Virus record (IMG/VR): IMGVR_UViG_3300046557_000516
Span: 1-64,000 of that record
Source of the DNA: a virus
Direction: 5' to 3' (one strand)
Length of the DNA stretch: 64,000 nt
The notes below the pieces were generated by a model. That model made no database searches, was not told the origin of the DNA, and saw only the letters and a list, made by a program, of their open reading frames with translations. The translations under genes were made by a program, and so were the position numbers. This document shows positions 9,747-37,891 of the stretch, piece after piece; the stretch's first letter is position 1; each line of letters opens with the position of its first letter.

Positions 9747-11008
9747 GCGATGACAAGCCCAACATTGCGGATCTTGCCGTGAACGATGGCAACCGCGATG
9801 TTGCCGGCCGCTTGTGTCCTGCCCGTCGAAGTCACGATAACCTCCGTGATGTCGGCGACGATCTCTTCAAAGATCCGCTGGCTTTCTTCGGTCCGGATCC
9901 GCTGGCGTTCGGTCTCCGCAGCGGCGGCCGCCCTGGCGTCGGCGTCTTCCTTCTCGAGGCGGAGACGTTCGTTCTCGGCGGCGATGTCGTCGTCGATCTT
10001 CTTCTGTGCTGCGGCCTGCCTGTCGGTTTCCTCCTTCTCGAGGCGGTCCCGTTCAAGCTTGTCGGCGCGCTCCGTGGCGTCGAGGGCGTCCTGCTCCGCC
10101 TTCTTCACCCGGGCGTCGGCGTCGGCGATCGCCTGCAGACGCTCTTCCTCGGCCTTGTCAGCGGCGGCGGCTTCATCCTTCTCCACGTAGAGCTTGCGGA
10201 GCGCGCCGTTGTAGGCTTGCGTCGCCTGATCGCGGAGATCGCCATAGCTGGCATCGATCTGCATGCCATCGAGGGCCTTGAAGCGGGCCGCCAGTTCGGC
10301 CTTCTCACCATCCAGGAAGCCGTTGCCGATATCGATGATGACGCGGATCGAGTCCTTGGCCGCCTGTTCACGCTCCGCCTTGTCGGCCTTGTCGCGGAGA
10401 GCGGCGAGCTCGAGCCGGTTCGTTTCGGCCACTGCGGCTTCGGCTTCAGCGTTGATCGCCGCCGTCTTCGCCCTGACCAGATTGGTGTAAGCGGCCTCGA
10501 TGACGAGTTTGGCCTCATCCTCGAATTCGTCATAGGTCGACATCTCATCCGTCGGCAGCGAGTCGATGCGCGCCTGGATCTGTGTCGACGTCTCGCCGAA
10601 GTTGACCTGGCCGGCGAGGCGGGCGGCATCGATCTTGGCCTGGAGGCGTTCCTTGCGCTCCTTCTCGGCCTCTTCGAATTTCGTCAGCGGATCCCGGACC
10701 GTCTTCTGGCGCGTCTCGAGCTCATCCCAAATCTCGGAACGATCGGCGTTGACCTGGTTGACAACAAGCTGCGCCTCTTCCTTGCGCTTCGCTCCAGCTT
10801 CATCGATGCGGTTCTTCAGCGAGGCAAGGGCGGCGGCCGTCGACTTCAGGACGTCGCGCTCCTTCTTCGACTCAATGGTTGTCGGAACGTCCTTCAGAAC
10901 GACGTCGAGCTGCTCGAGGAACGCGGTACGGGCATCCTTGCCGAGATCGGGGTGGAAGAGCTGCAGAACCTTTGCAGGCTCCAATGTCATGATTTCAAGT
11001 TTAGCCAC
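9743..11008 (-). CDS. Long coiled-coil protein of the recombination cluster, 421 aa
   Basis: It is almost entirely charged and helical, with alanine- and glutamate-rich heptads through most of residues 50-390 (for example EAEKERKERLQAKIDAARLA). The GTG start follows AAGG. Recombination clusters of other phages often place a coiled-coil (DUF1351-like) gene beside RecE/RecT. By position this could be an accessory factor for them. The C-terminal 30 residues are less charged and may form a small domain. Confidence 0.65.
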   Translation of the reverse strand: MAKLEIMTLEPAKVLQLFHPDLGKDARTAFLEQLDVVLKDVPTTIESKKERDVLKSTAAALASLKNRIDEAGAKRKEEAQLVVNQVNADRSEIWDELETRQKTVRDPLTKFEEAEKERKERLQAKIDAARLAGQVNFGETSTQIQARIDSLPTDEMSTYDEFEDEAKLVIEAAYTNLVRAKTAAINAEAEAAVAETNRLELAALRDKADKAEREQAAKDSIRVIIDIGNGFLDGEKAELAARFKALDGMQIDASYGDLRDQATQAYNGALRKLYVEKDEAAAADKAEEERLQAIADADARVKKAEQDALDATERADKLERDRLEKEETDRQAAAQKKIDDDIAAENERLRLEKEDADARAAAAAETERQRIRTEESQRIFEEIVADITEVIVTSTGRTQAAGNIAVAIVHGKIRNVGLVIA

Positions 11009-12341: not shown

Positions 12342-12535
12342 ATCGGTCTCCTCGTGAAGTGCATCCGATAACAGCCCTTGGCAAATTTCGATGGCTCGAA
12401 TGGCTCTCTCACCAATGATGTCCCGGTCCATTGCATTCCGTTCTCTTTTGCGAGGGCCCTGGCGGCGTCCCGTTCTGCGTTTGAGGCGACGACGACTTCA
12501 GCACGATCGTCTCTTATCCTGAGGCACAGCGTCAT
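12338..12535 (-). CDS. Hypothetical protein, 65 aa
   Basis: The start MTLCLRIRDD overlaps the stop of the ProQ-like gene. It has a beta strand (LCLRIRDDRAEVVVAS), a helix (AERDAARALAKENGM) and a basic end (CYRMHFTRRPI). It is the second gene of the operon, directly after the RNA chaperone. No family recognised. Confidence 0.55.
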   Translation of the reverse strand: MTLCLRIRDDRAEVVVASNAERDAARALAKENGMQWTGTSLVREPFEPSKFAKGCYRMHFTRRPI

Positions 12536-13260
12536 TTCGCGTCGCGCTCGCGGATCCGGCGCTCCAGCTCGGCGATCGCGGCGTCGTCCTTGGCCTTGCT
12601 GCCGTCGGAATGATACCAATTGTTGCTCATCGAAGCGGCGTATTGGAAATATTTGAGGCGCTCCAGTTCTTGCTCGAGCGTCAGCGGAATAGTCGCCGTG
12701 ACTATGCTACCATCTAGCCGCATGATTGCCATTCCAGAGGTTGCCGCCGCATCAAGCCCGATGACTCGCGCCGGCAAACCCATGACATCGGCCATGTGCT
12801 TGCGGTTCATCCCCGCCCACTGTTCATAGGAAAGCACAAGTGGATCGGCAGTCGGAGCGCCAAACAATGCCTCGCCGACCTGGACCGGTCCTGCAGGGTC
12901 TCGCTTGGGATTAGGAATGCGTTTGCCGGCGTTGAGGAGCGCGATACACGCCTTGGCGTATTCTGCGGCGTCATCGTCCACGAAGCCGGAGAACGTGCCT
13001 GCGAGCCCTACCCTGACAGCGCCCTTGCGGCATGCCTGGAAATAATGGATGCCGGTGACGTAGTCGGTCATGAAGGCGGAGATATGCCGATGAGACAGAC
13101 CCGGGAATTTCTCGCGGGCATCCTTCAGCAGATCTCTCTTGATACCAATTTTCAGGGGACGCTTTGCAAGCCCTGGGGCGACGAAGCAATTCGGATACTC
13201 GTGCACCATAGCGGTGCGGAGCTGGTTCATTTCCAGCTTAGAAACCCGTTTGCGGGACAT
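12532..13260 (-). CDS. ProQ/FinO-family RNA chaperone with unusual C-terminal extension, 242 aa
   Basis: Residues about 14-110 match the ProQ/FinO fold: YPNCFVAPGLAKRPLKIGIK, then LSHRHISAFMTDYVTGIHYF, CRKGAVRVGLAGTFSGFV and DDAAEYAKA. Family members bind structured RNAs with terminator-like 3' hairpins. The C-terminal ~130 residues replace the usual Tudor part; ARVIGLDAAATSGMAIMRLD looks like the first strand of an RNase H/RuvC fold, but the rest of such a fold was not seen. The start MSRKRVS follows TTGGAG at a good distance. It is the first gene of early operon 1, just after promoter PL. Confidence 0.8.
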   Translation of the reverse strand: MSRKRVSKLEMNQLRTAMVHEYPNCFVAPGLAKRPLKIGIKRDLLKDAREKFPGLSHRHISAFMTDYVTGIHYFQACRKGAVRVGLAGTFSGFVDDDAAEYAKACIALLNAGKRIPNPKRDPAGPVQVGEALFGAPTADPLVLSYEQWAGMNRKHMADVMGLPARVIGLDAAATSGMAIMRLDGSIVTATIPLTLEQELERLKYFQYAASMSNNWYHSDGSKAKDDAAIAELERRIRERDAK

Positions 13261-13289
13261 TGATTCCATCTCCAAGGAACGATGGATTA

Positions 13290-13317
13290 TGTATACCTTT
13301 CTGATTAGAAAGCGCAA
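13290..13317 (-). promoter_or_regulatory. Promoter PL of early operon 1
   Basis: Read on the minus strand: -35 TTGCGC (13312-13317), a 16-base spacer and -10 TATACA (13290-13295). A start about 7 bases downstream would leave a leader of roughly 20 bases with TTGGAG before the ProQ-like ATG at 13260. The elements match those of PR. Confidence 0.65.
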
Positions 13318-21462: not shown

Positions 21463-21555
21463 AATTTGGTTCCTCGTTTAATCAACCCAATTGGTATTCG
21501 AAATTCTGTCTGATTCGGCGATACTCCTTTCGGGATTGCAAACGGTTCATAGGGA

Positions 21556-22038
21556 TTAGTTGAGCGACTTCCTGTGAAGGCGTGACTTATTTATCGAGTC
21601 GAGCACGAGACCCGCATTGGTGGAAATCATTCCGACATCCGCCTTGGTCAAACCGAACGCCTCGTAAACGACGGCCATGGCCACCGTCATCGCATAGGCC
21701 GCTGTTTGCATAGGAAGCTTTTCGGCCTGGCAGGCGGAAAGCATCGCGGTCTGGATGAATTCCGACACCTTGTCCTCCGGATCTTTCACCATCTCCTGCG
21801 CCGGCCCGGTCTGTGCTTTGAGGTTCTTGTGCATGTCGTAGGCAAAATCGAGCAGGCTATCGATCTTGTAGCGCGGATCGACCCCCCTGAGGATCATGAC
21901 GTTAACCAAGCTCTGCGCGACGACTGACAGCACGGCGGGCGACATCGATTGCTTGCTGGCGTCGTGGACGATGATGGTTGCGAGTTTCTCGAGCAGGACT
22001 TTCGCCTGGATCTTTTCGCGGTCTGTTAGTTCGGTCAT
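21556..22038 (-). CDS. Hypothetical helical protein, 160 aa
   Basis: Helical throughout, with repeated small-residue helices (PAVLSVVAQSLVNVMILRGV and AAYAMTVAMAVVYEAFG). It is soluble rather than membrane-bound, because charged residues interrupt the helices. It lies 11 bases downstream of the HerA-like gene and may act with it. No family recognised. Confidence 0.55.
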   Translation of the reverse strand: MTELTDREKIQAKVLLEKLATIIVHDASKQSMSPAVLSVVAQSLVNVMILRGVDPRYKIDSLLDFAYDMHKNLKAQTGPAQEMVKDPEDKVSEFIQTAMLSACQAEKLPMQTAAYAMTVAMAVVYEAFGLTKADVGMISTNAGLVLDSINKSRLHRKSLN

Positions 22039-22049
22039 TTGATTTCCCT

Positions 22050-23465
22050 TCAGTGAATTGCGATTGCGATGAGAACGACGGACACGGCGAGCGCGACGAC
22101 GCCCTGAAGCATCTTGGTCCGGCCGATACGCCGACGCGCGTCCCTGGCCTCCTGTGGCGGCGCAGAAGGGCTAACGACATACTTTGCGAAGTCGCCCTCC
22201 ATCCAGGCGCCGGTCGGCTCGAGAATTGGCAAACCGCGCTCCGCCCGCATGCGGTTGTCGAATTGCTTCGCCGCTTCACCTTCCGTGGCCGAATAGGTGT
22301 ACTTGACACGGAGCGATGAACCCAGGTTGACGATCTCGCGCTCGAGCGTGGAAAGCGGCCCGATCTGTCCAGCCGGCAATTCCACCTTGACGCGCTCCAC
22401 CTTCGTCGGGACGCCGTCGGCCTCGATCACGGAAATGAAGGCTTCACCGATCCCAAGCGTGGTGACTTCCTTGACGTCGACTCCGCGGTTCGGCCGGAAC
22501 GATTTGATGGTTGCCTTGACCATGGTCTGATCGCGCGGGGTATAGACGCGCAAGGCGTGCTGGATCTTGGAGCCCAACTGCGCGAGGACGGTATCGGGAA
22601 CGTCGGCCACGGATTGGGTGACGAAGATGACGCCAACGCCCTTCGACCGAACCAGGCGCACGAGACGCTCGATCTGCTGGATCAACGGCTTCGGGCTATC
22701 CGTAAACAGCAGATGCGCTTCATCGAAGACAAAGACGATCTTCGGCTGCGATAGATCGCCGACCTCAGGCAATTTCCGGAAGAGCTCGGTTAGCAGCCAT
22801 AGCAGGAACGTCGCGTAAAGCTTCGGCGCCTCGATCAGCTTGTCGGCATGCAAAAGGTTGACGACGCCCTTCATTACGCCGCCTTCGAAGTCGAGTTGCC
22901 CGCGCAACAAATCCAGGATGTCGAACGGCGGCTCGCCGAATAACATCTCGCCGCCTTGTGACTCGAGCGTCATCAAATTGCGCTGGATCGCATTGATCGA
23001 AGAGCCGGTCACATTGCCGTATTTGTGCGAGATCTCATCCCGGTTGTCGATCATGTCGACAAGGACGTAGCGCAGATCGTCCAGGGTGAGCATGAAGTCT
23101 TTTTCGTCCTCGGCTTTCCTGAAGGCGATCGCCAGCGTTCCCGCCTGGGTCTCGTTAAGCCGCAGCATCGATGACAGCAGTTCGGATCCCATCGCCTGGA
23201 CAGATGTGCGGATTGGCAAGCCGTGAACCCCGAAGAGATCCCAAAATTGCGTTGGCGCCTTGGTTGCGATGCCGGAGAGATCGGACTTCACGTCGGAAGC
23301 GAAAACCGGAATGCCGTTGGCGGAGCATTGCTCCATGATGCGCTGCAAAGTCACCGTCTTGCCGCCGCCGGTGGAGCCGGTCACGAGCATGTGTCTGTTT
23401 AGGCGGGACAACGGGAGCGAGATGAGGCGGCCGTCGGCGGTCTTACCAATATCGATGTGCGTCAT
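22050..23465 (-). CDS. HerA/DUF853-like ATPase with C-terminal membrane anchor, 471 aa
   Basis: A HerA/FtsK-type core is clear: Walker A GSTGGGKT (30-37), a loop with ASDVKSDLSGI, Walker B KIVFVFDEAH (242-251) and sensor FVTQSVADVP (about 277-286). DUF853-type ATPases form hexameric DNA pumps. The last ~20 residues (GVVALAVSVVLIAIAIH) make a membrane helix, unusual for a DNA translocase and suggesting a membrane-tied ring. Neither a NurA-like nor a SIR2 partner is next to it. Confidence 0.85.
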   Translation of the reverse strand: MTHIDIGKTADGRLISLPLSRLNRHMLVTGSTGGGKTVTLQRIMEQCSANGIPVFASDVKSDLSGIATKAPTQFWDLFGVHGLPIRTSVQAMGSELLSSMLRLNETQAGTLAIAFRKAEDEKDFMLTLDDLRYVLVDMIDNRDEISHKYGNVTGSSINAIQRNLMTLESQGGEMLFGEPPFDILDLLRGQLDFEGGVMKGVVNLLHADKLIEAPKLYATFLLWLLTELFRKLPEVGDLSQPKIVFVFDEAHLLFTDSPKPLIQQIERLVRLVRSKGVGVIFVTQSVADVPDTVLAQLGSKIQHALRVYTPRDQTMVKATIKSFRPNRGVDVKEVTTLGIGEAFISVIEADGVPTKVERVKVELPAGQIGPLSTLEREIVNLGSSLRVKYTYSATEGEAAKQFDNRMRAERGLPILEPTGAWMEGDFAKYVVSPSAPPQEARDARRRIGRTKMLQGVVALAVSVVLIAIAIH

Positions 23466-23614
23466 TCTCTGATCTCCAGTTGCTTAAGGGCCTTGATGTA
23501 GCGCCGCGCTCCGGCCGCCAGTTTCTGGTAGCGTTTGATGTCCGCGATGTGTTCAGCAAGCTCGATTTTTGCCTTTGCGATGGCGTCGTCGATTTCTTTC
23601 CGCTCGTGCTTCAT
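23462..23614 (-). CDS. Small coiled-coil protein, 50 aa
   Basis: ATG at 23614 and TGA at 23462, overlapping neighbours on both sides by ATGA. The product is a single charged helix (KEIDDAIAKAKIELAEHIAD) with a basic end. Directly upstream of the HerA-like gene and translationally coupled to it, it is a natural candidate for a small partner of the ATPase. Confidence 0.6.
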   Translation of the reverse strand: MKHERKEIDDAIAKAKIELAEHIADIKRYQKLAAGARRYIKALKQLEIRE

Positions 23615-23790
23615 GATTTCCAGATCTCCAATCCCTTTGCGTAGGCGTAGCGCTTCAATCCGTTGATTTGCCTCATCTCCTCATCAATGGCCCGCTGTAT
23701 CCGCTTAATTTCCCGCAAGCCGAAGGCGAGCCGATACTGCGCCGTGACGAGGCTAGCGTTGAATTCCAGTTCCTCTTCAGCCTTGCTCAT
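23611..23790 (-). CDS. Small coiled-coil protein, 59 aa
   Basis: The start MSKAEEELEF overlaps the preceding stop. Another mostly helical, charged protein (FGLREIKRIQRAIDEEMRQI) of the same style as its neighbour, so the two may form a heteromeric coiled coil. Function unknown. Confidence 0.55.
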   Translation of the reverse strand: MSKAEEELEFNASLVTAQYRLAFGLREIKRIQRAIDEEMRQINGLKRYAYAKGLEIWKS

Positions 23791-24104
23791 TCGACGTCCT
23801 CCAGGTGATCGTCCGGAGCGCGCTCCAGGTACGGGAATTCGACCCCAGGCAATTGCTTGTCGGAAACGATGCGTTCCGCCGCCTCCTGGCGGGCATTGAT
23901 AATCATCGACGGATTGCCGGTGAAAATCGCCAGCACGATGGGAACCCAATACGGAATGTTATCTTCCCCATCGATCCAATTGTGGATGCGCTTCGGTTCG
24001 AACCCAAAGATCCGTGCAAAGGCATTGGGAACCATGCCGATCTGATCCAGCGCCCGGGCGAATTCCGGCCCCGTCAGTCGGACGTATTCAAATCTGCGGC
24101 TCAT
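23787..24104 (-). CDS. XRE-like HTH protein, 105 aa
   Basis: Residues 11-60 (TGPEFARALDQIGMVPNAFA then RIFGFEPKRIHNWIDGEDNI) resemble an XRE-type helix-turn-helix. The C-terminal part is acidic. It may regulate this operon. The start overlaps the stop of the next upstream gene. Confidence 0.6.
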   Translation of the reverse strand: MSRRFEYVRLTGPEFARALDQIGMVPNAFARIFGFEPKRIHNWIDGEDNIPYWVPIVLAIFTGNPSMIINARQEAAERIVSDKQLPGVEFPYLERAPDDHLEDVE

Positions 24105-24304
24105 GTCTTCCTCCTGGGGATGGATTTGATCGTCTTGACGACGAAAGCCTCCGGAGATTTACGCGTCGGCCAATTGTCCGCCACATAGGTATCCGTGTAG
24201 AATTCGCCGTGGATATTGTTCCGGATCTCCTTCAGCGCGTATTCGCGGCTGCAATTGCGATCGAACCGGACCTTGATCGAGAATTCGTGCGTCTTACTCT
24301 GCAT
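24101..24304 (-). CDS. Hypothetical protein, 67 aa
   Basis: A small alpha/beta protein (EFSIKVRFDRNCSREYALKE then IRNNIHGEFY) with a basic end. The pattern recalls small phage proteins with a ferredoxin-like fold. It overlaps both neighbours. No family recognised. Confidence 0.5.
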   Translation of the reverse strand: MQSKTHEFSIKVRFDRNCSREYALKEIRNNIHGEFYTDTYVADNWPTRKSPEAFVVKTIKSIPRRKT

Positions 24305-24656
24305 TGTCAGCGTACTCCCGGATCTCGCGCGTGACCTGGCCCAATTCGATCACGGCATTGGATGCCAGCCAAATCAGGATGTCGCGGATTGCATCGATGT
24401 CGCACGAGATCTCGCGCAATTCTGTTTTCATGACCTCGACGCCATCGAGGCGATAGCGCTCCGCCAGAATTGCTTTCGCATCCTCGACAGCGTGGTAATG
24501 CCTCATCCCGCCGTTTGACAGATAGATAGACTGTCCCTCCGCCCTGCGGACGTTGGGAATGTTGCGAGCGTGTTTCGAGTCCTTCAAGCGCTCCTGGAGA
24601 TGCGCGACTTGCTGGAGGAATTGCTCCAGCGTGGAATTAGGCTTTCGTTCAAACAT
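24294..24656 (-). CDS. Hypothetical protein, 120 aa
   Basis: The start MFERKPNS follows AAAGG; a start 9 codons upstream is possible. It is helical at both ends (LEQFLQQVAHLQERLKDSKH; CDIDAIRDILIWLASNAVIE), with a middle region MRHYHAVEDAKAILAERYRL. No motif recognised. Confidence 0.5.
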   Translation of the reverse strand: MFERKPNSTLEQFLQQVAHLQERLKDSKHARNIPNVRRAEGQSIYLSNGGMRHYHAVEDAKAILAERYRLDGVEVMKTELREISCDIDAIRDILIWLASNAVIELGQVTREIREYADNAE

Positions 24657-24697
24657 GGCATTGCCTTTCGTAATTGATCCCACGATTGGGATATGTG

Positions 24698-24724
24698 GGC
24701 GGAGCGTTACTGAAGCGCTCCGCC
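24698..24724 (-). repeat. Intergenic hairpin GGCGGAGCG/CGCTCCGCC, copy 1
   Basis: GGCGGAGCG (24698-24706) pairs perfectly with CGCTCCGCC (24716-24724). The same 9-bp stem recurs at 25109-25132, on the other side of the 67-aa gene. It lies in the 218-base gap 24657-24874, which holds no convincing gene. Confidence 0.6.
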
Positions 24725-24840
24725 GCTGATGTGGTTGCCCGATAGGCTCGCGTTAGAGCATGACGGCATTCTCCTCCTGTTTACTCGCCAGCGCGATCTA
24801 GTCCGCAGCACTGGCAATCCGTGGCGCGGCGCCTCTATGA

Positions 24841-24862
24841 GCGCGACGGGGTAACGTCGCGC
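24841..24862 (-). repeat. Intergenic hairpin GCGCGACG/CGTCGCGC
   Basis: An 8-bp perfect stem with a 6-base loop in the same gap, just downstream of the 67-aa gene in transcription order. No U-tract follows on the minus strand. It may be a processing or stabilising stem. Confidence 0.5.
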
Positions 24863-24874
24863 CTTAGAAGAGCC

Positions 24875-25078
24875 CTAGGAAAGGGCGGCTAGCGCACGGC
24901 GGAAATCATCCTTGGTAAGCTCCTTCCAGCCTACTACCTTTCCGTCCACGCGCACCTCCTGTCGATGCACGACATTGCCGTCGCGTAATGAGGTGTACTC
25001 GACACATGGCGCGATATCAGCAAACGGCTTCAGCGCCGCCCGCAGCATATCCAATTCCTTCTGATTATCCTCGTTCAT
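24875..25078 (-). CDS. Hypothetical protein, 67 aa
   Basis: The start MNEDNQKELD is chosen because the longer frame is a shadow of the clamp gene. It has a helical start, then beta strands with a basic/polar pattern (SLRDGNVVHRQEVRVDGKVV). It is flanked by the two copies of the GGCGGAGCG hairpin. No family recognised. Confidence 0.5.
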   Translation of the reverse strand: MNEDNQKELDMLRAALKPFADIAPCVEYTSLRDGNVVHRQEVRVDGKVVGWKELTKDDFRRALAALS

Positions 25079-25108
25079 GCCTGAATTCCTTTTGACCTGA
25101 GGGGATGA

Positions 25109-25132
25109 GGCGGAGCGAATTGCCGCTCCGCC
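25109..25132 (-). repeat. Intergenic hairpin GGCGGAGCG/CGCTCCGCC, copy 2
   Basis: GGCGGAGCG (25109-25117) and CGCTCCGCC (25124-25132) enclose a 6-base loop, 7 bases after the clamp stop on the minus strand. The stem is identical to the one at 24698-24724 but the loop differs. Confidence 0.6.
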
Positions 25133-25139
25133 AATTGGA

Positions 25140-26309
25140 CTAGACGCGCATTGGCATAAGAACCGCAGTCCAGCCGTCGCGGCCGTAGATGCGAGACGGT
25201 GAGCCGGCATCGCGGAAACCAATCCGCAGCTCGCCGCCGCCATGCGTGGCAATGGCTTCCAGGACGTAGCGGCCGTTGAAACCAATTTCGAATTCGTCAC
25301 CGCTCCAATGTGCAGGGATATCGGCGGAGGCCGAACCGTTGTCCGGATTGTTGCAATGGAGCTTTGACTCCGATTTACCCAACGAAAGCTTGAAAGCGCG
25401 TCCCTTGTCGGAAGCGATCAATAGGACAGACTTCACCGCTTCAGCCAATTCGTCCGCCTCAAACAAAGCGAAGTCAGCACTGTGGACCATATCCGGAATG
25501 GCGCGCTGATAGTCCGGAAACGTGCCGTCGATTGTTTTCGCCGTGATAACGACGTCGCCGAATTCGAATTCGAAGGCAAAGCGGATCCTGCGGCTTTTGC
25601 TGTCGTCCACCGTCACGGTTACGATACGCGGCGCGTTCTTGCCCTTTAGGAGCGCCTCCATAAGCTTTACGACACGAGTTGGCACGATGAGGCCAAGCGG
25701 CAACGTCGGGAATTCCTCCGGCTTGCCGACGTTCTGTCGATAAAGCCTATGCCCATCGGTCGCAACGAAGGTCAAAACGTCCGCGATTGTGTGAACAAAG
25801 ATCCCATTGAGGTAATAGCGCGTTTCCTCGGTTGAGATCGCGCCAGATGTCTTGTGAAAGGCGTTGTAAAGCGTGGACCCGTCGATATCGAAGGCAACGG
25901 AGTCCAGCGCGGGAACGTCCATGACCGGAAAATCGGCCGCATCAATTGTCGGCAGACTATAGCGAGCCTTTTCGAATTCGACTTTCAGATATGTCGGATA
26001 TTGCTCAAGCGCGACACAATAGGCTTTTGGCGCGTTCTTAAGCAGCTTCAGCACGTTGGACGCTGCGGCCGTTGTGTCGAGTCGCGAGTCAACGGCGGCC
26101 GCAATCTTCACCTGAATTTCGATATCCAGGTTCGTTGCCGTCATCGTGATATGCGAGCCCGAACCCTGAAGGCGGACGTTGTCCAGGACCGGAATTGAGT
26201 TGCGCGTCTCAACCGCCTTCGTGACGATCTCCATAGCGGCCGTAAAGGCGTCGCGCTCGATAACGGCGGAGGGGGCGAGTGTGGCGGAAATGGTTGCTGC
26301 GTTTTCCAT
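25140..26309 (-). CDS. dnaN: DNA polymerase III beta subunit (sliding clamp), 389 aa
   Basis: Typical DnaN features span the length: TRNSIPVLDNVRLQG at the start, PTIDAADFPVM, RYYLNGIFVH, FVATDGHRLYR in the middle, FPDYQRAIP, and the canonical end AVLMPMRV. Three clamp domains fit in 389 residues. The second ATG is preferred because AGGA stands 8 bases before it. The ring would hold the host polymerase, or repair enzymes, on phage DNA. Confidence 0.93.
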   Translation of the reverse strand: MENAATISATLAPSAVIERDAFTAAMEIVTKAVETRNSIPVLDNVRLQGSGSHITMTATNLDIEIQVKIAAAVDSRLDTTAAASNVLKLLKNAPKAYCVALEQYPTYLKVEFEKARYSLPTIDAADFPVMDVPALDSVAFDIDGSTLYNAFHKTSGAISTEETRYYLNGIFVHTIADVLTFVATDGHRLYRQNVGKPEEFPTLPLGLIVPTRVVKLMEALLKGKNAPRIVTVTVDDSKSRRIRFAFEFEFGDVVITAKTIDGTFPDYQRAIPDMVHSADFALFEADELAEAVKSVLLIASDKGRAFKLSLGKSESKLHCNNPDNGSASADIPAHWSGDEFEIGFNGRYVLEAIATHGGGELRIGFRDAGSPSRIYGRDGWTAVLMPMRV

Positions 26310-26389
26310 AGTCATGTTCCTTTTGTGATGCGGTGAACAATTTCACCCATGACGGCCGAACGTGGCGGCCGTCGCGGCTGGAATTGGTT

Positions 26390-26596
26390 TCAGTCTTCCT
26401 CATCGTCGCAAGTCTGGATTGACATCTCGCCGACATTGTTTCCGTTGATGTCGATTAAGTGCCAACTGTTGATATTCCCGTTTTCGAAGTCGTCCGCCAG
26501 CTTGCGCAAGATGCGCGCAATTTCGCTAGTTGGGCTTTCTTCAAAAGCCGCGTTGCTGGTTTCAATGTGAAGCGCGATGCGCTCAAACTTAGCCAT
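26390..26596 (-). CDS. Hypothetical protein, 68 aa
   Basis: The start MAKFERIALH shares one base with the preceding stop (TAATG). An acidic protein with a helical middle (TSEIARILRKLADDFENGNI) and a beta end with DINGNNVGEM. No family recognised. The 74-base gap to the clamp gene holds a GACGGCC/GGCCGTC hairpin. Confidence 0.55.
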   Translation of the reverse strand: MAKFERIALHIETSNAAFEESPTSEIARILRKLADDFENGNINSWHLIDINGNNVGEMSIQTCDDEED

Positions 26597-26964
26597 TAGA
26601 AAGCACTCCGTTGCGTGGAAAGGGTGATTGCGTCCTGCAGGATTGCGCACGCCTTGTCTGTATTCTCGCCGATGAGATCTAGCGCGGCTCGCATTGGCGC
26701 GAGGATGCCGTCTAGCACTTCGAAGGCGTCGGCCTCAGAGATATAATCACCCATCGCGCATGCGAGCATGTGGCCGCTGGTATCCGCGTAGTGGCCGTAT
26801 ACCGTCCAAAAGCTTTCGTGCGGTATAGAGGCGTCGTTCAATTGGCGTTCCACGCGCTCAAACTCCGCCTTGTTGGCGTAGGATGTCAAAGCCGTGGTCT
26901 CTACGCCTTCAACGGTTTCCGCGATCTCTATGCATGGCCTGATGTGGTAATAGTCAAAGCGCAT
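26596..26964 (-). CDS. Hypothetical protein, 122 aa
   Basis: The start MRFDYYHIRP is preferred over an upstream ATG because GGGTG precedes it at a better distance. It shows alternating strands and helices (CIEIAETVEGVETTALTSYA then NKAEFERVERQL). An acidic helix follows (YISEADAFEVLDGILAPMRA). Function unknown. Confidence 0.5.
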   Translation of the reverse strand: MRFDYYHIRPCIEIAETVEGVETTALTSYANKAEFERVERQLNDASIPHESFWTVYGHYADTSGHMLACAMGDYISEADAFEVLDGILAPMRAALDLIGENTDKACAILQDAITLSTQRSAF

Positions 26965-27757
26965 TGTCTTCACCCCCATAGATGAAACCGCAAGCGATCA
27001 TGTCGCTGCGGAATTGCTCGATAAGTCCAGGAAGGCGCGCGGCAAGCTTTGCCTTCAATTCCTCAGGCGGAGCGCACAATTCCTCGTCTGTCGCCTCGGG
27101 CCAAACGGCCGAACTGCGGGCTAAATCAAGCTGGCGTTCCTTGCCTTCACCCACGCGACACCACGGCCGCCAAACGAGCTGCAAGCCGTCGTCTTCCGGT
27201 TGTTCTGCGGAGTCGACCTGTTTCGGGATCTGATAGAGCGCGATCTCGAAACCATCCTTGTCCAGGGCGACGCGTTCCCATGCCGGCAATTTGGTCTTGC
27301 CGTTGACGATTTGGCGACGCTCGCCTTTCAGCAAGCCGGATGAATCGCGGTTGCTGGCGTGATAGACCGTGTTTGCGAGGTAGTGCATAGGGCCCGCCGT
27401 TCCGCACAAATGCCACTTGATGAGCGGAGCAAACTCCGGAAAGTGTTTGACAATATCGCCATGCGCTGCGCCGCCACCGCTTTCGCGCCAAAATCCGGAG
27501 CGCTCCTCATCAATCGAGCAAGTGATGCCGAAATCATCGTGGCCGTTCTGGCAATTGTCGTCGAAACGGAGCTCAACGCGCATCCGCATCTTGCGGCCGT
27601 TTTCATTGTAAAACCGCGTCGCTCCAAACGTCTGACTTGCAAGCGTGGTCAATTGTCCAGTCCAGCGGATGACGTTGAACATGCGGCCGGCAACGCCGTT
27701 GATGACGTGCGAGAATTCCTCGCGCACGATTTCGGAAGAAAGCTTTAGGCGGTTCAT
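26954..27757 (-). CDS. Conserved hypothetical protein, 267 aa
   Basis: Long uncharacterised protein with strong motifs: FNVIRWTGQLTTLASQTFG, FDDNCQNGHDDFGITCSI and HLCGTAGPMHYLANTVYHAS followed by NRD. The His/Cys-rich centre could bind metal. I associate such proteins with large alphaproteobacterial phages and plasmids that also carry DUF932 genes, as here. The partner and reaction are unknown. Confidence 0.6.
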   Translation of the reverse strand: MNRLKLSSEIVREEFSHVINGVAGRMFNVIRWTGQLTTLASQTFGATRFYNENGRKMRMRVELRFDDNCQNGHDDFGITCSIDEERSGFWRESGGGAAHGDIVKHFPEFAPLIKWHLCGTAGPMHYLANTVYHASNRDSSGLLKGERRQIVNGKTKLPAWERVALDKDGFEIALYQIPKQVDSAEQPEDDGLQLVWRPWCRVGEGKERQLDLARSSAVWPEATDEELCAPPEELKAKLAARLPGLIEQFRSDMIACGFIYGGEDNAL

Positions 27758-27797
27758 TGCAGTTCCCTTTCCAGTTTCGCCACCATTGGCGAGCGTC

Positions 27798-27836
27798 TTA
27801 AGGATGCGCCACGGTTGAGCCGTGGCGACACCTTAG
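27798..27836 (-). repeat. Covarying intercistronic hairpin, copy 1
   Basis: Outer stem TTAAGG/CCTTAG, a 3x3 internal loop ATG/ACA, inner stem CGCCACGG/CCGTGGCG and a 5-base loop (plus-strand letters). It starts 10 bases after the stop of the DUF932 gene on the minus transcript. Copies 2 and 3 keep the loop and spacing with different paired bases. Confidence 0.65.
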
Positions 27837-27846
27837 AACGCCTTGG

Positions 27847-28740
27847 TTATGCCGCGCGCTTGAACCCCTTCAGGGCGGCCATTTGCTCCGCCATGGCCCA
27901 AAGAGCCTTATTCAACTTGATATCGCCATCGATGTTTTTCACGGCGCGCATTGCCGGGCGACGGCCGTCGATACGTCCACGCGCGGTCAAATCGCCCTTA
28001 ATGGCATGTTCTTGGATGACGTTGAATTTCGTCCACAAGTCCGAACCGCCATCGTCGCGACGGTTCGGCCGCAAGAATTGTTCAGGCTGATAGGCGCGAA
28101 ACTGTGGCGTTTCCGGTTCGCCTTCAGCCGCTCCGAAACGGTACTCGTGTGCAGCGGCCGCCATAATCATTTGCTCGTCACGGTCTAGCGTGATCTGTCC
28201 CCAATCCTGAGGCGCGGCTAGCAGCAACTCGGCTGACTTCAGGACTTCATATGTCCCTTCAATCACCTTGCCCTGTATGGCCTCCGCCGTGCCAGTGTGA
28301 CGAACCTTGACGGAGTCGACAGTCGAGATTTGCGACACAAGCGAGTTTGTGCAGCGAATGCGGAACATGCCGCCCATCAAGTCATATGCGGCGGTTCCAT
28401 CGTTCGCGTTCTTGAGTAGGATTTCAAAAACCGAATCGCCGACACTGAATTTCTGATCCTGATCCAAGCGACGGAAGCGGAGCATATGCTTTGTGAAGTC
28501 GCGGCGGGTTTCGTCGCGTGTGCCGCCCTGTTTCGCGCCAACTGGCGAAAAGCCTTCGGACTGAAGAGCGCGAACGATCTCGATTGTTGGGATAGGCTGG
28601 AAACGATCGCTGCGGCTATCGTGCTTTTCAACCGCAAAGATCGAAGGCGCAACTTTGCGCATTTCATCCTCAGTCAAAGCGCGTGCGCTTCCGTCAAAAC
28701 GAGCGGTCTGATTGGCATAGATAGGATGCATGTAAGACAT
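27847..28740 (-). CDS. DUF932-domain protein, 297 aa
   Basis: The motifs SIFAVEKHDSRSDRF, FSPVGAKQGGTRD, KHMLRFRRLDQ, LMGGMFRIRCTNSLV and KVRHTGTAEAI are those of DUF932 proteins, common on plasmids and large phages. The function is unknown; roles in replication or recombination have been proposed for relatives. A GGAAAG ribosome site precedes the start. Confidence 0.8.
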   Translation of the reverse strand: MSYMHPIYANQTARFDGSARALTEDEMRKVAPSIFAVEKHDSRSDRFQPIPTIEIVRALQSEGFSPVGAKQGGTRDETRRDFTKHMLRFRRLDQDQKFSVGDSVFEILLKNANDGTAAYDLMGGMFRIRCTNSLVSQISTVDSVKVRHTGTAEAIQGKVIEGTYEVLKSAELLLAAPQDWGQITLDRDEQMIMAAAAHEYRFGAAEGEPETPQFRAYQPEQFLRPNRRDDGGSDLWTKFNVIQEHAIKGDLTARGRIDGRRPAMRAVKNIDGDIKLNKALWAMAEQMAALKGFKRAA

Positions 28741-28873
28741 GGTCTTTCCTTCATAATCGGCGAAATTGCCGGATTAGTGCAGCGCAAAGAAAGAAACGCG
28801 ACGCTGCATTAACGCAAGAAATTTCGTGCCGTCGGAAATTTTCCGGCTGGCAATTGTTTTTAGACCCCTGAAA

Positions 28874-29245
28874 CTAGGGGGTGGCGGCCGCCGTTTTCTC
28901 GCCGAAACCGTGGAAACCCGCCGTTTTCGCGCTTTCGCCCATAGAACCCCGTACGACGCGTTGCGCGCTTTCAGCCACGGTAGCCGCGCTTTCCTCAGAG
29001 ATCGCGCCCTTGACGCCCTCCGGCCGCTTTACGCGCTCCGTTCGGCACGTTGCCACAACTCCGGAGATGCGAGCCGCTTCGATGGCGTCGACACAATCTT
29101 GCATGGTCAAGCCATGGTCTGAAATGTCGGACTCCGAACCGTGGAACGTGATGAGCTCATAGCGCGCACCTGGAGCGGCCGGAGCTGCCAACGCGAACGA
29201 TGCCGCGAAAGCGAGGGCGCCAATGATGAGGACGGGTTTTGACAT
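28874..29245 (-). CDS. Exported small protein, 123 aa
   Basis: The start MSKPVLIIGA opens a clear signal peptide (basic start, LIIGALAFAASFALA, then APAAPGA at the likely cleavage site). The mature part has two cysteines (QDCVDAIEAA and VATCRTE) that could form a disulfide in the periplasm. Exported early phage proteins may block superinfection or alter the envelope. No family recognised. Confidence 0.65.
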   Translation of the reverse strand: MSKPVLIIGALAFAASFALAAPAAPGARYELITFHGSESDISDHGLTMQDCVDAIEAARISGVVATCRTERVKRPEGVKGAISEESAATVAESAQRVVRGSMGESAKTAGFHGFGEKTAAATP

Positions 29246-29249
29246 GACT

Positions 29250-29393
29250 TCAGCCTTTCGCGACAGAGATGGCGTGCAACCACTTGCCGCCGATGAGAAA
29301 CACAATCTTGCCGTCGCGGCTCATATGAGAGACCACGCCCTCGCGCGTCGCGCCGTAGTTCGAATAGGTGACCTTGTCGCCTTGCTTGAACAT
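29250..29393 (-). CDS. Small KOW/SH3-like protein, 47 aa
   Basis: ATG at 29393, TGA at 29250. The sequence MFKQGDKVTYSNYGATREGV then VSHMSRDGKIVFLI is a single small beta barrel of the SH3/KOW type. Such domains bind RNA, DNA or peptides. It lies 4 bases before the exported protein's start in the same operon. Confidence 0.6.
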   Translation of the reverse strand: MFKQGDKVTYSNYGATREGVVSHMSRDGKIVFLIGGKWLHAISVAKG

Positions 29394-29404
29394 GTCGAGC
29401 GCTC

Positions 29405-30088
29405 CTAAAACCGAAACTTGATGAGACCTTCAGCGCCAAAACGCGGATGGTTGCGGAGGCCATGCAAGACCGTGCCACGCTCGCCAATGGCGCGCGCTCG
29501 ATACCAGTCCAGCGCCAAGGCGTCTTTCCACTTGCGGCCATACTCCGCCGCATAGGACTTCAGCGCGTCGTATGCCTCCGGAGGCGTATACGGCAACGTC
29601 GCGTTCAACTCCGCTACCGCAGCGTCGCAATCCGACTGAAGAGCGCTAGCGGCTTTAATAACCACTACGTCCGCGCTTTTGTAGCCTTGCGAGCCGTCGA
29701 TATAGTCGCGACGCTCCGCAACCACTAGGGACTTGATGAAGTCGCCGAACTGGACAGAGAAGCGGTTTTCGTCTCGTGTCGCCAAAAGGTAATAAGCCGG
29801 TTCGCGCGCTGGCAACGGTTCAACCGGAGCGGCGGGAATGTTGCCCGTAACGAGCGGTCCCCATACAAGGTTAAAGACCGATGGGAAATACTCCGTGCTT
29901 TGTTCGTTTTCGTCATGGTCCGCCGTCATAACCCATACGCGGTTATGCCCGTTGTTCGGCCAGCCGCTCACAACAAAGGACTCGCCACGAAATGACGTGA
30001 CCGCGTCGCCAGCGGAAACCGGGCGGCCGTCGGCATGATACAACTGCGGAGTTTCGGCGGAGATGCGATGTGCGAAGGCGTTGGACAT
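29405..30088 (-). CDS. Hypothetical protein, 227 aa
   Basis: The start MSNAFAHRIS follows AAAGGAAAG. The first 80 residues include an SH3-like piece (DAVTSFRGESFVVSGWPNNG) with WVMTADHDENE. The middle has YYLLATRDENRFSVQFGDFI and a helix follows. The end is GLIKFRF. No family recognised; it may bind nucleic acid. Confidence 0.55.
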   Translation of the reverse strand: MSNAFAHRISAETPQLYHADGRPVSAGDAVTSFRGESFVVSGWPNNGHNRVWVMTADHDENEQSTEYFPSVFNLVWGPLVTGNIPAAPVEPLPAREPAYYLLATRDENRFSVQFGDFIKSLVVAERRDYIDGSQGYKSADVVVIKAASALQSDCDAAVAELNATLPYTPPEAYDALKSYAAEYGRKWKDALALDWYRARAIGERGTVLHGLRNHPRFGAEGLIKFRF

Positions 30089-30111
30089 GGCTTGCTTTCC
30101 TTTGTTGCGAG

Positions 30112-30155
30112 CGGTTGAGGATGCGCCAGCGCTGCGGCTGGCGACACCTAAGCCG
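30112..30155 (-). repeat. Covarying intercistronic hairpin, copy 2
   Basis: Outer stem CGGTTGAGG/CCTAAGCCG (one mismatch, one G-U), internal loop ATG/ACA, inner stem CGCCAGC/GCTGGCG and a 6-base loop. It begins 3 bases after the stop of gene 30159-30419. Confidence 0.6.
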
Positions 30156-30158
30156 TTC

Positions 30159-30419
30159 CTACTGCAACCATGCGCTTTCCGCCCACGCTGCAACGTCAAG
30201 CCGCGAACCGTCCTTGAATATGAACGTGCAACCGGTCAAATACTCCATCTCGCTTTCTGCGATCTCGTGTTTCCACTCCGCACGCATGGCGCTTTCGACT
30301 TCGTAGACATGCAAGCGGTCACTGCGCTCCGCAAGGATAGGCGTGAACTGCGCCAGCTCCGCAATGGTGACGGCCGAGTTGAAAATGTCGCCTGAGTTGT
30401 CGATAGAAATGCGGGCCAT
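30159..30419 (-). CDS. Hypothetical protein, 86 aa
   Basis: The start MARISIDNSG is preceded by AAAGGAG. It is an acidic alpha/beta protein with a beta end (CTFIFKDGSRLDVAAW). The 12 bases CGCAACAAAGGA before its start also precede the next gene (29405-30088), suggesting a duplicated translation-start module. Confidence 0.55.
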   Translation of the reverse strand: MARISIDNSGDIFNSAVTIAELAQFTPILAERSDRLHVYEVESAMRAEWKHEIAESEMEYLTGCTFIFKDGSRLDVAAWAESAWLQ

Positions 30420-30455
30420 GGGGTTCGCTCCTTTGTTGCGATGGAAACGGGTTCG

Positions 30456-30494
30456 TTTCAGATGCGCGGCCATGACGCGGCCGCGACACTGAAG
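30456..30494 (-). repeat. Covarying intercistronic hairpin, copy 3
   Basis: Outer stem TTTCAG/CTGAAG, internal loop ATG/ACA, inner stem CGCGGCC/GGCCGCG and a 7-base loop. It begins 6 bases after the stop of the exported-protein gene at 30501-30770. Confidence 0.65.
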
Positions 30495-30500
30495 CGCGCC

Positions 30501-30770
30501 TTAGTTCTGAGTTGCTTCGTTCTCGCCGAAAAAGGCAATGTTGGCGTAAAGGGTGTTGAGCTCCGCCCCGATCCCTTGCGCCTTGAAACGCGAGCCGTCC
30601 TTGATGCCTTCCGGAGCTGCGCCCTTGCATGCGGCGGCCAAATGTTCGGAGAGATGCGCCTTGGATGCGCAAACCGCCTTGAACTGCGAAGGCAAGTCAG
30701 CGGCCGGAGCTGCAACGGCGGAGAAGGCGGAAAGAGCGACGAAAGCGGATGAGATGAGAAGAGCGCGCAT
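30501..30770 (-). CDS. Exported small protein, 89 aa
   Basis: The start MRALLISSAF opens a signal peptide (LLISSAFVALSAFSAVAAPA). The mature part carries two cysteines (KAVCASKAHL and AAACKGAA), a possible periplasmic disulfide. It is the second exported protein of this operon; both share the alanine/proline cleavage region. Function unknown. Confidence 0.65.
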   Translation of the reverse strand: MRALLISSAFVALSAFSAVAAPAADLPSQFKAVCASKAHLSEHLAAACKGAAPEGIKDGSRFKAQGIGAELNTLYANIAFFGENEATQN

Positions 30771-30841
30771 AGCAGATGTTTCCTTTTCCAGTTTGGCACA
30801 ATCGCCAGATAAGCCGCGCGTCACTGCGGCTTGCCAAGCGA

Positions 30842-31045
30842 CTATGCATACAAAGGGTTAAAACCGTCTAAAGACCGGACGAGGGCGGCCATAGCAGCAC
30901 GCTCGACAAGGCGAGCGGTGCGCGCACGGTCTGTCACTGGCGACGACACGTAGAACGAACCGCCGACGCGGCCGACGCGCCAATGGATGAGACCGCCGAC
31001 TTGCTGGACAGAGACGTTCAAGAAAGACTGAAGGAAGGAGAGCAT
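30842..31045 (-). CDS. Hypothetical protein, 67 aa; first gene of early operon 2
   Basis: ATG at 31045 follows AAAGG. The sequence MLSFLQSFLNVSVQQVGGLI then HWRVGRVGGSFYVS is part hydrophobic, with basic residues after it. It may associate with the membrane. It lies about 50 bases after the candidate promoter at 31095-31121. Confidence 0.55.
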   Translation of the reverse strand: MLSFLQSFLNVSVQQVGGLIHWRVGRVGGSFYVSSPVTDRARTARLVERAAMAALVRSLDGFNPLYA

Positions 31046-31094
31046 GGGAGAGACCTTTCAAACCAGACTCACAAGCGAGCCGTTGAATGGAAAT

Positions 31095-31121
31095 GTATAC
31101 CTTTTTGCGGGAATGCCAAGG
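31095..31121 (-). promoter_or_regulatory. Candidate promoter of early operon 2
   Basis: On the minus strand -10 TATACA (31095-31100) lies in AAAAAGGTATACATTTCC, nearly identical to the sequence at 13984-14000 near PR. A CTTGGC -35-like hexamer (31116-31121) stands 15 bases upstream, closer than ideal. GTATACCT (31096-31103) matches the half-sites over PL. It could be a promoter, an operator or both. Confidence 0.5.
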
Positions 31122-31875
31122 GGGTGAAGTGACAAAATGTATAGGTCTATGCACTCCGGCGAAAAGAGTAATGAAATCAAGCGAAATGCGACGGCCGACT
31201 TTTCCGATACATGATGCCGGAAAGACCACGAAACGCGCCCTTGGCCCGCTATGGGCGAAACAACGCCTATCCCTGATAAAGCGACGCTCGCCGACTGGAC
31301 AGACGAGACCGCGCTCGCCGACACCACTTGCTGCGCTCCAATACTCCGGCAATACGCCAACGTGGATGTCGCTCGCCGACTCGGCCGTCACGGATAACAG
31401 GAAACGAATAGCCCTATAGGCGTATATGACTAGGCCACGTGTCCACACGAGCCAATGCACGCTGACTCGCTGCGCCCTTTGACGTCGCCCCGATGAAACG
31501 GCAATACGGCATGCACAAACGGATATGATGGCGACACATGACAAGGGGACAGACAAGCGTTGCGCTTGCGTCGACCTGATCGGCCACGAACCCATATCCA
31601 CCCTACCCCATAGCCCATATCGGCCATGACCCATGATGCACGTCGACATGATCTCGTGTCATAGCGCCTCAAGGGCGAGCGTGTGCCGTCGGCGGCCATC
31701 AACACCTATGACAGTGCCACGCACGCCGCCAGCGACGCGCTATGGGCACGAAAAGGCGCATTAGGGACCGTTTATCGGGTGCGGGCAGAGCGGAGCGCAG
31801 CCTCCCGTTCTGTCGCGCAAATTGAAAAATGTAAGGGGAGATCATCTCGTACCCCTGGAAACCCTGGAGAAATCG
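31104..31875. other. Non-coding interval with short repeats
   Basis: No open frame here has a ribosome site or phage-like codon use. GCTCGCCGAC occurs three times (31286, 31313, 31371) and CGCTATGGGC twice (31247, 31738). The interval separates early operon 2 from the late genes. A replication origin, a promoter region for late genes or a decayed gene are all possible. Confidence 0.4.
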
Positions 31876-36072: not shown

Positions 36073-37891
36073 CGCAGCCGTCAAATCGCTGTTCAAGGAC
36101 ATCTCCGCGGCGCTGACACCGCCGGTGGAGATGAGCTACTCCGAATGGGCGATCGCCAATTTCAGGCTTTCCGCCGTCGCCTCCGCCGATACCGGGCGGT
36201 TTCGCCCCTGGAAATTCCAGCGCGGGATCCTTGATGCCATCGGTGACCCGCTTTTCCCTCGCGTTTCGGTCATCAAGCCGACCCGAACGGGTTACACGAA
36301 GTCGCTTATCGCCGCGATCGGCGCCATTGCCGACAACGATCCGTCGCCGATCATCCTGTTGATGCCGACGGACGACGACGCCCGCGGGATCATGGTTGAC
36401 GAGGTCGACCCGGCCTTCAAGGAAAGCCCCAGGCTTCGCGGCCTGATGAGATCCGGCCGTTTCGACGGTAGGAACACCTTGACGCACCGGTCCTTTGCCG
36501 GCGGCGGCTCACTGAAGGCGATCGCAGCCGCGGCGCCACGCAATCTTCGCCGTCACTCGGCGAAATACCTGTTCTGCGACGAAGTCGACGGGATGAAAAT
36601 CACCTCAGAAGGTGATCCGTTGAAGATCGCGGAGAAGCGCACGGACTCCTATCCAGATCGCAAGATCGTGATGGGATCTACGCCAGTTGATGATGCCACC
36701 TCCATCATCATCACCCGGTACAACGAGAGCGACCAGCGCGTTTTCGAAATTCCGTGCGTTCATTGCAGCGTTCCCTTCGAACTGATGTGGGAACACCTGG
36801 ACTGGAAGCCTGGCCAGCCGGAGACGGTTGTCGCCAACTGCCCGAACTGCGGCGTCGAGATCGAGGAAAAATACAAGCCTCAGATGGTCGAGGCCGGCGA
36901 ATGGCGGGCAACGAAGCCTGAGGTCAATGGACATGCCGGTTTCCGGCTCAACGCACTGATCTCGATGTTCTCCAACGTCCGATGGGCAATGCTTGTCACG
37001 GAATATGAGAACGCCGTGAAGCAGGGCGCCTCGGCCATGCAGGTTTTCACGAACACCGTCCTTGGCCAAGTCTATTCGGCCGCGATCGACTATGTAAACG
37101 AAACCATGCTGATGGCTCGTTGCGAACCCTTTGGTCTCAGGCTCGAGCTTGGATCCGGCCAATGGGAAGAGAAGATCCCGGTGGAAGTCGGCTACATCAC
37201 AGCCGGCGTTGACGTCCAGGTCGATCGCGTCGAAATGACCTTCGTCGGTCATAGCCCGTCGCATCGCTACATCCTTGGCCATCACGTCGTCTACGGCGGC
37301 ACCAACCTCGATACGACCTGGGATGAGGTTCATTCAGTCCTGATGACGAAGTGGCAACATCCACTCGGCGGGACCATCGGCATCGAGGCCGCCGGCGTCG
37401 ACTCCGGTGACGGTAACAGGACGCAGAACGTCTACGACTTCGTCGAGCACACACAGGGACAGAAAATCGTCGCCATCAAGGGCGTCGCCGGTCCCCGCAA
37501 GGTGATCGAGGTCTCCAAGGTGAAGCGCAGAAACCGGACCGCCCCGCTCTATCTGATCGGCGTCGACCAGGTGAAACTCGACATCCTTGCCACCCTTCCG
37601 AAGGAAAAAACGGAGTCGCAAGCGTTCCGTTTCAGCAACACGTTGACAGAGGATTACTTCCTCCAGCTCAACGCGGAACGTCGTGTCCTCGTCTACAAAC
37701 AGGGCCGCCCGATCGAGCAATTCGAGCGGATCGGCAATCGAAAAGCAGAAGCGCTTGACACCGTGGTTTACGCCTTGGCGGTCAAATACCTCTGCAATTT
37801 CAACTATGAGAAGCGATACCTCGAGCTCAAGGGCGACGCTCCACCAAAGAGGAGCCTGAAGGACATCGTCTCCAAAATGCACAGGAAGTGA
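36056..37891 (+). CDS. Terminase large subunit, lambda gpA family, 611 aa
   Basis: The GpA-type ATPase is seen as KPTRTGYTKS (74-83, modified Walker A) and YLFCDE (171-176, Walker B), then MGSTPVDD. A zinc site follows (CVHC...CPNC). The nuclease half carries ITAGVDVQVDRVEM and the late acidic motif KAEALDTVVYALAV. The ATG at 36056 has GGGGGAG 6 bases before it and is preferred over that at 36050. It packages DNA into the prohead. Confidence 0.95.
   Translation: MSSRASAAVKSLFKDISAALTPPVEMSYSEWAIANFRLSAVASADTGRFRPWKFQRGILDAIGDPLFPRVSVIKPTRTGYTKSLIAAIGAIADNDPSPIILLMPTDDDARGIMVDEVDPAFKESPRLRGLMRSGRFDGRNTLTHRSFAGGGSLKAIAAAAPRNLRRHSAKYLFCDEVDGMKITSEGDPLKIAEKRTDSYPDRKIVMGSTPVDDATSIIITRYNESDQRVFEIPCVHCSVPFELMWEHLDWKPGQPETVVANCPNCGVEIEEKYKPQMVEAGEWRATKPEVNGHAGFRLNALISMFSNVRWAMLVTEYENAVKQGASAMQVFTNTVLGQVYSAAIDYVNETMLMARCEPFGLRLELGSGQWEEKIPVEVGYITAGVDVQVDRVEMTFVGHSPSHRYILGHHVVYGGTNLDTTWDEVHSVLMTKWQHPLGGTIGIEAAGVDSGDGNRTQNVYDFVEHTQGQKIVAIKGVAGPRKVIEVSKVKRRNRTAPLYLIGVDQVKLDILATLPKEKTESQAFRFSNTLTEDYFLQLNAERRVLVYKQGRPIEQFERIGNRKAEALDTVVYALAVKYLCNFNYEKRYLELKGDAPPKRSLKDIVSKMHRK

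Follow-up and report, generated by a model that had tools for sequence, protein, structure and literature searches.

Many early-operon junctions in seven Rhizobiales phages and prophages hold a stable hairpin shortly past the stop codon together with a short hairpin ahead of the Shine-Dalgarno sequence. Three hairpins with an identical UGU/CAU core in one of these phages, at 27798-27836, 30112-30155 and 30456-30494 (copies 1 to 3), are probably post-stop stem-loops of this junction module, which would join a post-stop barrier to control at the start site. The short start-associated hairpin, whose six-base loop follows the consensus RANNGU, is a stronger new motif than the post-stop hairpin.

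The three hairpins lie in the window, a stretch of 64,000 nucleotides (positions 1 to 64,000 of IMG/VR record IMGVR_UViG_3300046557_000516); the viral record analysed has 66,331 bases, and its early operon runs leftward, on the - strand, over 9-10 kb. No near DNA relative of the phage was found in the phage collection. Its terminase has relatives in viral contigs at 59-69% identity, and matches in Rhizobium sp. Root274 (68%), Mesorhizobium sp. LSJC280B00 (68%), a Salinarimonadaceae MAG (61%) and Microvirga brassicacearum (52%); from these relatives in rhizobial genomes it follows that the phage group infects Rhizobiales. For comparison we read three long viral relatives (G001, G002 and G003) and several prophage regions, with L137, L140 and L241 among the loci compared. 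Among the viral contigs, a 227-aa protein has no relatives and a 267-aa protein has one weak relative. The early operon includes the gene of a DUF932 protein (27847-28740, - strand; PF06067, E = 2e-31), which lies upstream of copy 1, and that of a DNA polymerase III beta clamp (25140-26315, - strand). Near the early operon end lies the gene of a HerA-like ATPase of 471 aa (PF05872; 22050-23465, - strand), whose C-terminus looks hydrophobic and for which each of the six relatives compared has a homologue. A 105-aa protein (23787-24104, - strand) without a match in Pfam or PHROGs is a candidate regulator; its homologues lie within the early regions of G001, G002, G003 and L137. As a binder gene shared in the early region, these two common genes were the ones considered, and neither is a known RNA binder.

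All three hairpins share one orientation on the transcribed (-) strand and begin 3-10 nt past the stop codon of an early gene, exactly as the preliminary description had placed them: copy 1 follows the DUF932 gene, copy 2 the gene at 30159-30419 and copy 3 the gene at 30501-30770. On the mRNA, copy 1 reads 5'-CUAAGG-UGU-CGCCACGG-CUCAA-CCGUGGCG-CAU-CCUUAAG, copy 2 reads 5'-AGG-UGU-CGCCAGC-CGCAGC-GCUGGCG-CAU-CCU and copy 3 reads 5'-UUCAG-UGU-CGCGGCCG-CGUCA-UGGCCGCG-CAU-CUGAA, each with the core GUGUCGC...GCGCAUC. Hairpins with the ATG/ACA element, an inner stem of at least 4 pairs and an outer stem of at least 3 occur at only these three sites in the window. The pattern GATGCGCN{8,30}GCGACAC matches the 66,331-base record three times forward and never in reverse, the reversed control pattern of the core has no match in the same record, and by our own estimate the chance of the three-copy pattern is about 0.01. 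The folding z of the mRNA strand is -4.7 for copy 1, -2.6 for copy 2 and -3.1 for copy 3.

The inner stems have 8, 7 and 8 pairs, respectively, all of them standard with one G-U. Inner pairs 1-3 are invariant, whereas pairs 4-7, and outer pairs 2-4 as well, differ on both sides among the copies. The compensatory stems reported earlier are borne out, although on the RNA strand the outer stem of copy 2 carries a C-A mismatch, where a G-T pair had been read, and a U-C mismatch. Likewise, the ATG/ACA element is invariant in sequence as had been claimed, but its reading as a symmetric open 3x3 internal loop has an alternative: in the RNAfold structures of all three copies, UG and CA are paired and one U is bulged per side. 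In each arm seven bases are identical in all copies and the stem tips vary with compensation. With three copies in one genome, this covariation is a small sample for such a claim, and the seven invariant bases per arm could also stem from recent copying.

The exact UGU/CAU core is absent from every relative examined, and a search for UGU/CAU hairpins over about 2.4 Mb of fetched loci gave no convincing copy in relatives. At the orthologous DUF932 junction of G002, whose DUF932 protein is 61% identical, the hairpin has a different inner stem, CGGGGCGG/CCGCCCCG; CGCAUCCU is kept on the 3' side, the 5' U is missing and there is no internal loop. The hairpin is therefore kept at this junction and the special loop is not, so the relatives examined do not support the earlier proposal of a conserved motif whose ATG/ACA loop is read by a specific binder. 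The pattern GGATGCGCCN{4,20}GGCGACACC returned 95 stretches in viral contigs, most of which either recur identically from contig to contig or show no pairing beyond the pattern itself, and none was accepted as a relative. In L241, the hairpin after the beta-clamp gene (about 10340-10390; GGGUGUCGAG...CUCGGCACCC) has the 5' arm GGUGUCG in common with copies 1 and 2, a likeness that may be chance. The UGU/CAU core is most easily explained as a trait of this one phage, in which one hairpin was copied to three junctions and its stems then drifted with compensation, and it may be a binding site after all.

Post-stop hairpins as such are far more widespread than this core. Other junctions of the window's early operon have plain hairpins that lack it, all on the - strand: at 30811-30832 (AAGCCGC...GCGGCUU), with orthologues in L241 and L137 whose stems have changed; before the beta-clamp gene at 26351-26373, with flanks CAGCCGC/AUGGGUG common to L241 and G003; after the beta-clamp gene at 25109-25132 (GGCGGAGCG...CGCUCCGCC); and at 24841-24862 (GCGCGACG...CGUCGCGC). 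A stable hairpin of unrelated sequence stands shortly past the stop codon in nearly all fetched homologues of the DUF932 gene, even those with as little as 38% identity. Over early-operon gaps of seven phages, chosen by hand, the post-stop segments have a mean z of -2.5, compared with -0.17 for random windows of the same strand. For gaps from six phages that were picked solely by the presence of a start hairpin, post-stop segments average a z of -2.1, against -0.18 for random windows (p = 1.6e-5). Some gaps have a z near 0 and no strong post-stop hairpin, among them gaps in G001 and L137 and the window gap at 28741-28873.

The stems of these hairpins are exchanged between fixed flanks. GGCAA, a varying stem and UUAUCUGGC follow one another in the window phage, L241 and L137; CAGCCGC is followed by GACGGCCG or by GACCGGC in the window phage, L241, G003 and G001; and in the DUF932 gap of the window phage and G002 the flanks are retained and the stem is exchanged. 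Therefore it is the pairing, and not the sequence, that is kept between phages, which supports selection on the RNA pairing of the post-stop hairpins.

The second element of the junctions is a hairpin with a covarying stem of 3-6 bp that stands 5-12 nt before the Shine-Dalgarno sequence and closes a hexaloop RANNGU, mostly AAUUGU or GAUUGU; the neighbouring Shine-Dalgarno sequence is A-rich, AAAGG(A). On the - strand of the window, it occurs before the gene at 30501-30770 (UGGC-GAUUGU-GCCA, 30794-30807), the gene at 26954-27757 (UCGCC-AAUGGU-GGCGA, 27777-27792), the beta-clamp gene (GGUGA-AAUUGU-UCACC, 26332-26347) and the next gene of the operon, which encodes 120 aa and ends at 24294 (AUCCC-AAUCGU-GGGAU, 24677-24692). 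A variant, CGGC-AAUUUC-GCCG, precedes the DUF932 gene at 28758-28771 and is a weak model match (11.5 bits, E = 3.7). The hairpin at 27777-27792 lies in the same gap as copy 1, so that this junction shows the full layout; no RANNGU hairpin adjoins copies 2 and 3, and copy 3 is followed by a GAACCC-hexaloop hairpin in its place. The relatives carry GGGAC-GAUUGU-GUCCC (G001), GGCUC-GAUUGU-GAGCC (G002), GCUC-AAUUGU-GAGC (G003), GGGC-AAUUGU-GCCC (L137) and CCGC-AAUCGU-GCGG (L140). In G002, two hairpins with GGATTGT/GATTGT stand in tandem before the DUF932 gene (36135-36175).

Two fair tests bear on this motif. The first is a count of RAYYGT hexamers made without any selection for pairing: of the 39 followed by a Shine-Dalgarno sequence and a start codon, 26 lie within a stem of 3 bp or more, compared with 35 of 1121 elsewhere in the same sequences. 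In the second, among all hexaloop hairpins with stems of at least 4 pairs before a Shine-Dalgarno sequence and start codon, AATTGT occurs nine times, GATTGT seven times and AATCGT three times, other loops being listed once each. Across 30 copies from six phages, 46 cells are altered on both sides, compared with 21 in shuffles, and the covariation score is 0.707, compared with 0.163 for shuffled copies and at most 0.14 for slid controls, figures that are inflated by the pairing filter with which the 30 copies were picked. The best matches of a model built from the six phages fall almost exclusively in early operons. Run on the prophage region L241, which is not part of the model, it found several copies (best E = 8.5e-5), and these widen the loop consensus to RANNGU. 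In a more distant prophage, L242 (G427:C1:561000-578838), the hairpin GGTC-CATNNG-GACC occurs three times (- strand; 12873, 13781 and 14283), each time immediately upstream of CAGGAG and a start codon; it may be a further start-associated type with a loop of its own.

The closest published kind that we found among open-licence papers, with an earlier description elsewhere being possible, is the SAS of cluster K mycobacteriophages (PMC3203893). These elements share a consensus of 13 bases and recur before the starts of different genes, mostly in one orientation, with an adjacent inverted-repeat element (ESAS) whose inverted repeats carry a subcluster consensus sequence; the function is unknown (PMC3203893). 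The likeness lies in a recurrent element just upstream of many starts in a phage group, here 30 copies in six phages plus those of L241. Unlike SAS/ESAS, the element here comes from phages of Rhizobiales and keeps only its hexaloop constant, its stem being free and covarying. The elements read here do not show the SAS motif 5'-GGGATAGGAGCCC before starts; they combine a RANNGU loop, the Shine-Dalgarno sequence AAAGG(A) and free stems. Among Rfam 15 families, no match in the window reaches the gathering threshold, and at E <= 1 the region 21500-31200 has one unrelated weak match.

Several other readings of the three hairpins deserve weighing. The irregular hairpins between early genes of phage T7 are RNase III sites, and the three hairpins may, by analogy, be processing sites of RNase III, or of RNase E acting between the two hairpins of a junction. 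We regard this as possible but somewhat doubtful, and it overlaps the junction-module reading. It would fit stems that are built in two tiers, are interrupted by minor internal defects and stand at junctions within one long operon, and the second hairpin that follows in some gaps would cap a new 5' end. However, helices of about 15-17 bp with two bulges are short for a classic RNase III site. The hairpins are also shorter than the T7 early-region sites and lie right at the stop codon.

It is unlikely that an RNA-binding protein of phage or host specifically recognises the UGU/CAU hairpins, for example the ProQ/FinO-domain protein that the phage encodes at 12532-13317 (- strand; PF04352, E = 7e-17) and that the preliminary description had put forward as one candidate binder. 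In favour of such recognition, seven bases per arm stay constant across the copies beside tips that vary with compensation, and ProQ and the core co-occur here with neither in three relatives, a single instance of co-occurrence (n = 1). On the other hand, the core was found in no relative examined, and other junctions of the same operon make do with plain hairpins. In the FinO-domain complex that has been solved, what the protein recognises is a hairpin whose 3' polypyrimidine end is free, rather than an internal loop (PMC9674577). The three hairpins resemble ligands of ProQ/FinO-domain proteins (PMC9674577, PMC9977716) as GC-rich hairpins ending a message, but as read from the genomic sequence, before any processing of RNA ends, no pyrimidine tract that could serve as a 3' polypyrimidine tail lies 3' of any of the three stems. 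Moreover, no ProQ gene was found in G001-G003, records that may be incomplete and that share the junction layout, so this layout probably does not depend on ProQ. ProQ is thus a poor candidate binder, and a preference of ProQ for UGU/CAU hairpins is not favoured.

That the hairpins are partial Rho-independent terminators, giving a decreasing gradient of early transcripts, is quite improbable. They are stable, GC-rich and right past stop codons, and some relatives have UUCG-type loops, but no T run follows any of the three and the - strand has no terminator-like site there; post-stop hairpins that lack a U tract are not ordinary terminators, and simple termination is therefore unlikely.

Stable hairpins past a stop codon inside an operon, with no U tract, are known from the E. 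coli REP elements and the intercistronic stem-loops of the Rhodobacter puf operon. The hairpins described here differ in having no conserved repeat sequence across relatives, in occupying many phage early junctions and in being accompanied by a start-site hairpin; REP-type elements have many genome-wide copies of a conserved sequence, and here there are three copies in the same operon. A DNA-level repeat with no RNA role, be it a REP-like mobile sequence or a protein-binding DNA site, would account for three copies sharing a constant core, but with one orientation on the coding strand, all copies immediately past stop codons and none in relatives, it is very improbable.

Under the junction-module reading, the order at a junction is stop codon, stable hairpin, short RANNGU-loop hairpin, Shine-Dalgarno sequence and start codon. 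From the positions, predicted pairing, covariation and recurrence in relatives, we infer that the post-stop hairpin would act as a stable barrier: once the RNA is cut at the junction, it would keep 3'-to-5' decay from reaching the upstream reading frame at its 3' end, and it would also separate two translation units. This is the simplest role for it, and junction processing would suit both hairpins. The start hairpin, with its fixed loop and free stem, is the likelier site for a specific binder, which would act on translation or on 5' ends. Tentatively, a putative phage- or host-encoded protein might read the RANNGU hexaloop and make the early operon a post-transcriptional, RNA-level regulon, with the post-stop hairpins isolating individually controllable units.

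To conclude, copies 1-3 appear as one visible part of a wider junction punctuation. A hairpin with a fixed loop and a free stem before many early genes suggests that these Rhizobiales phages, or else their hosts, have a regulator that binds RNA, and together the two hairpin types would offer a simple picture of a 9-10 kb early operon as a series of separately controlled units.
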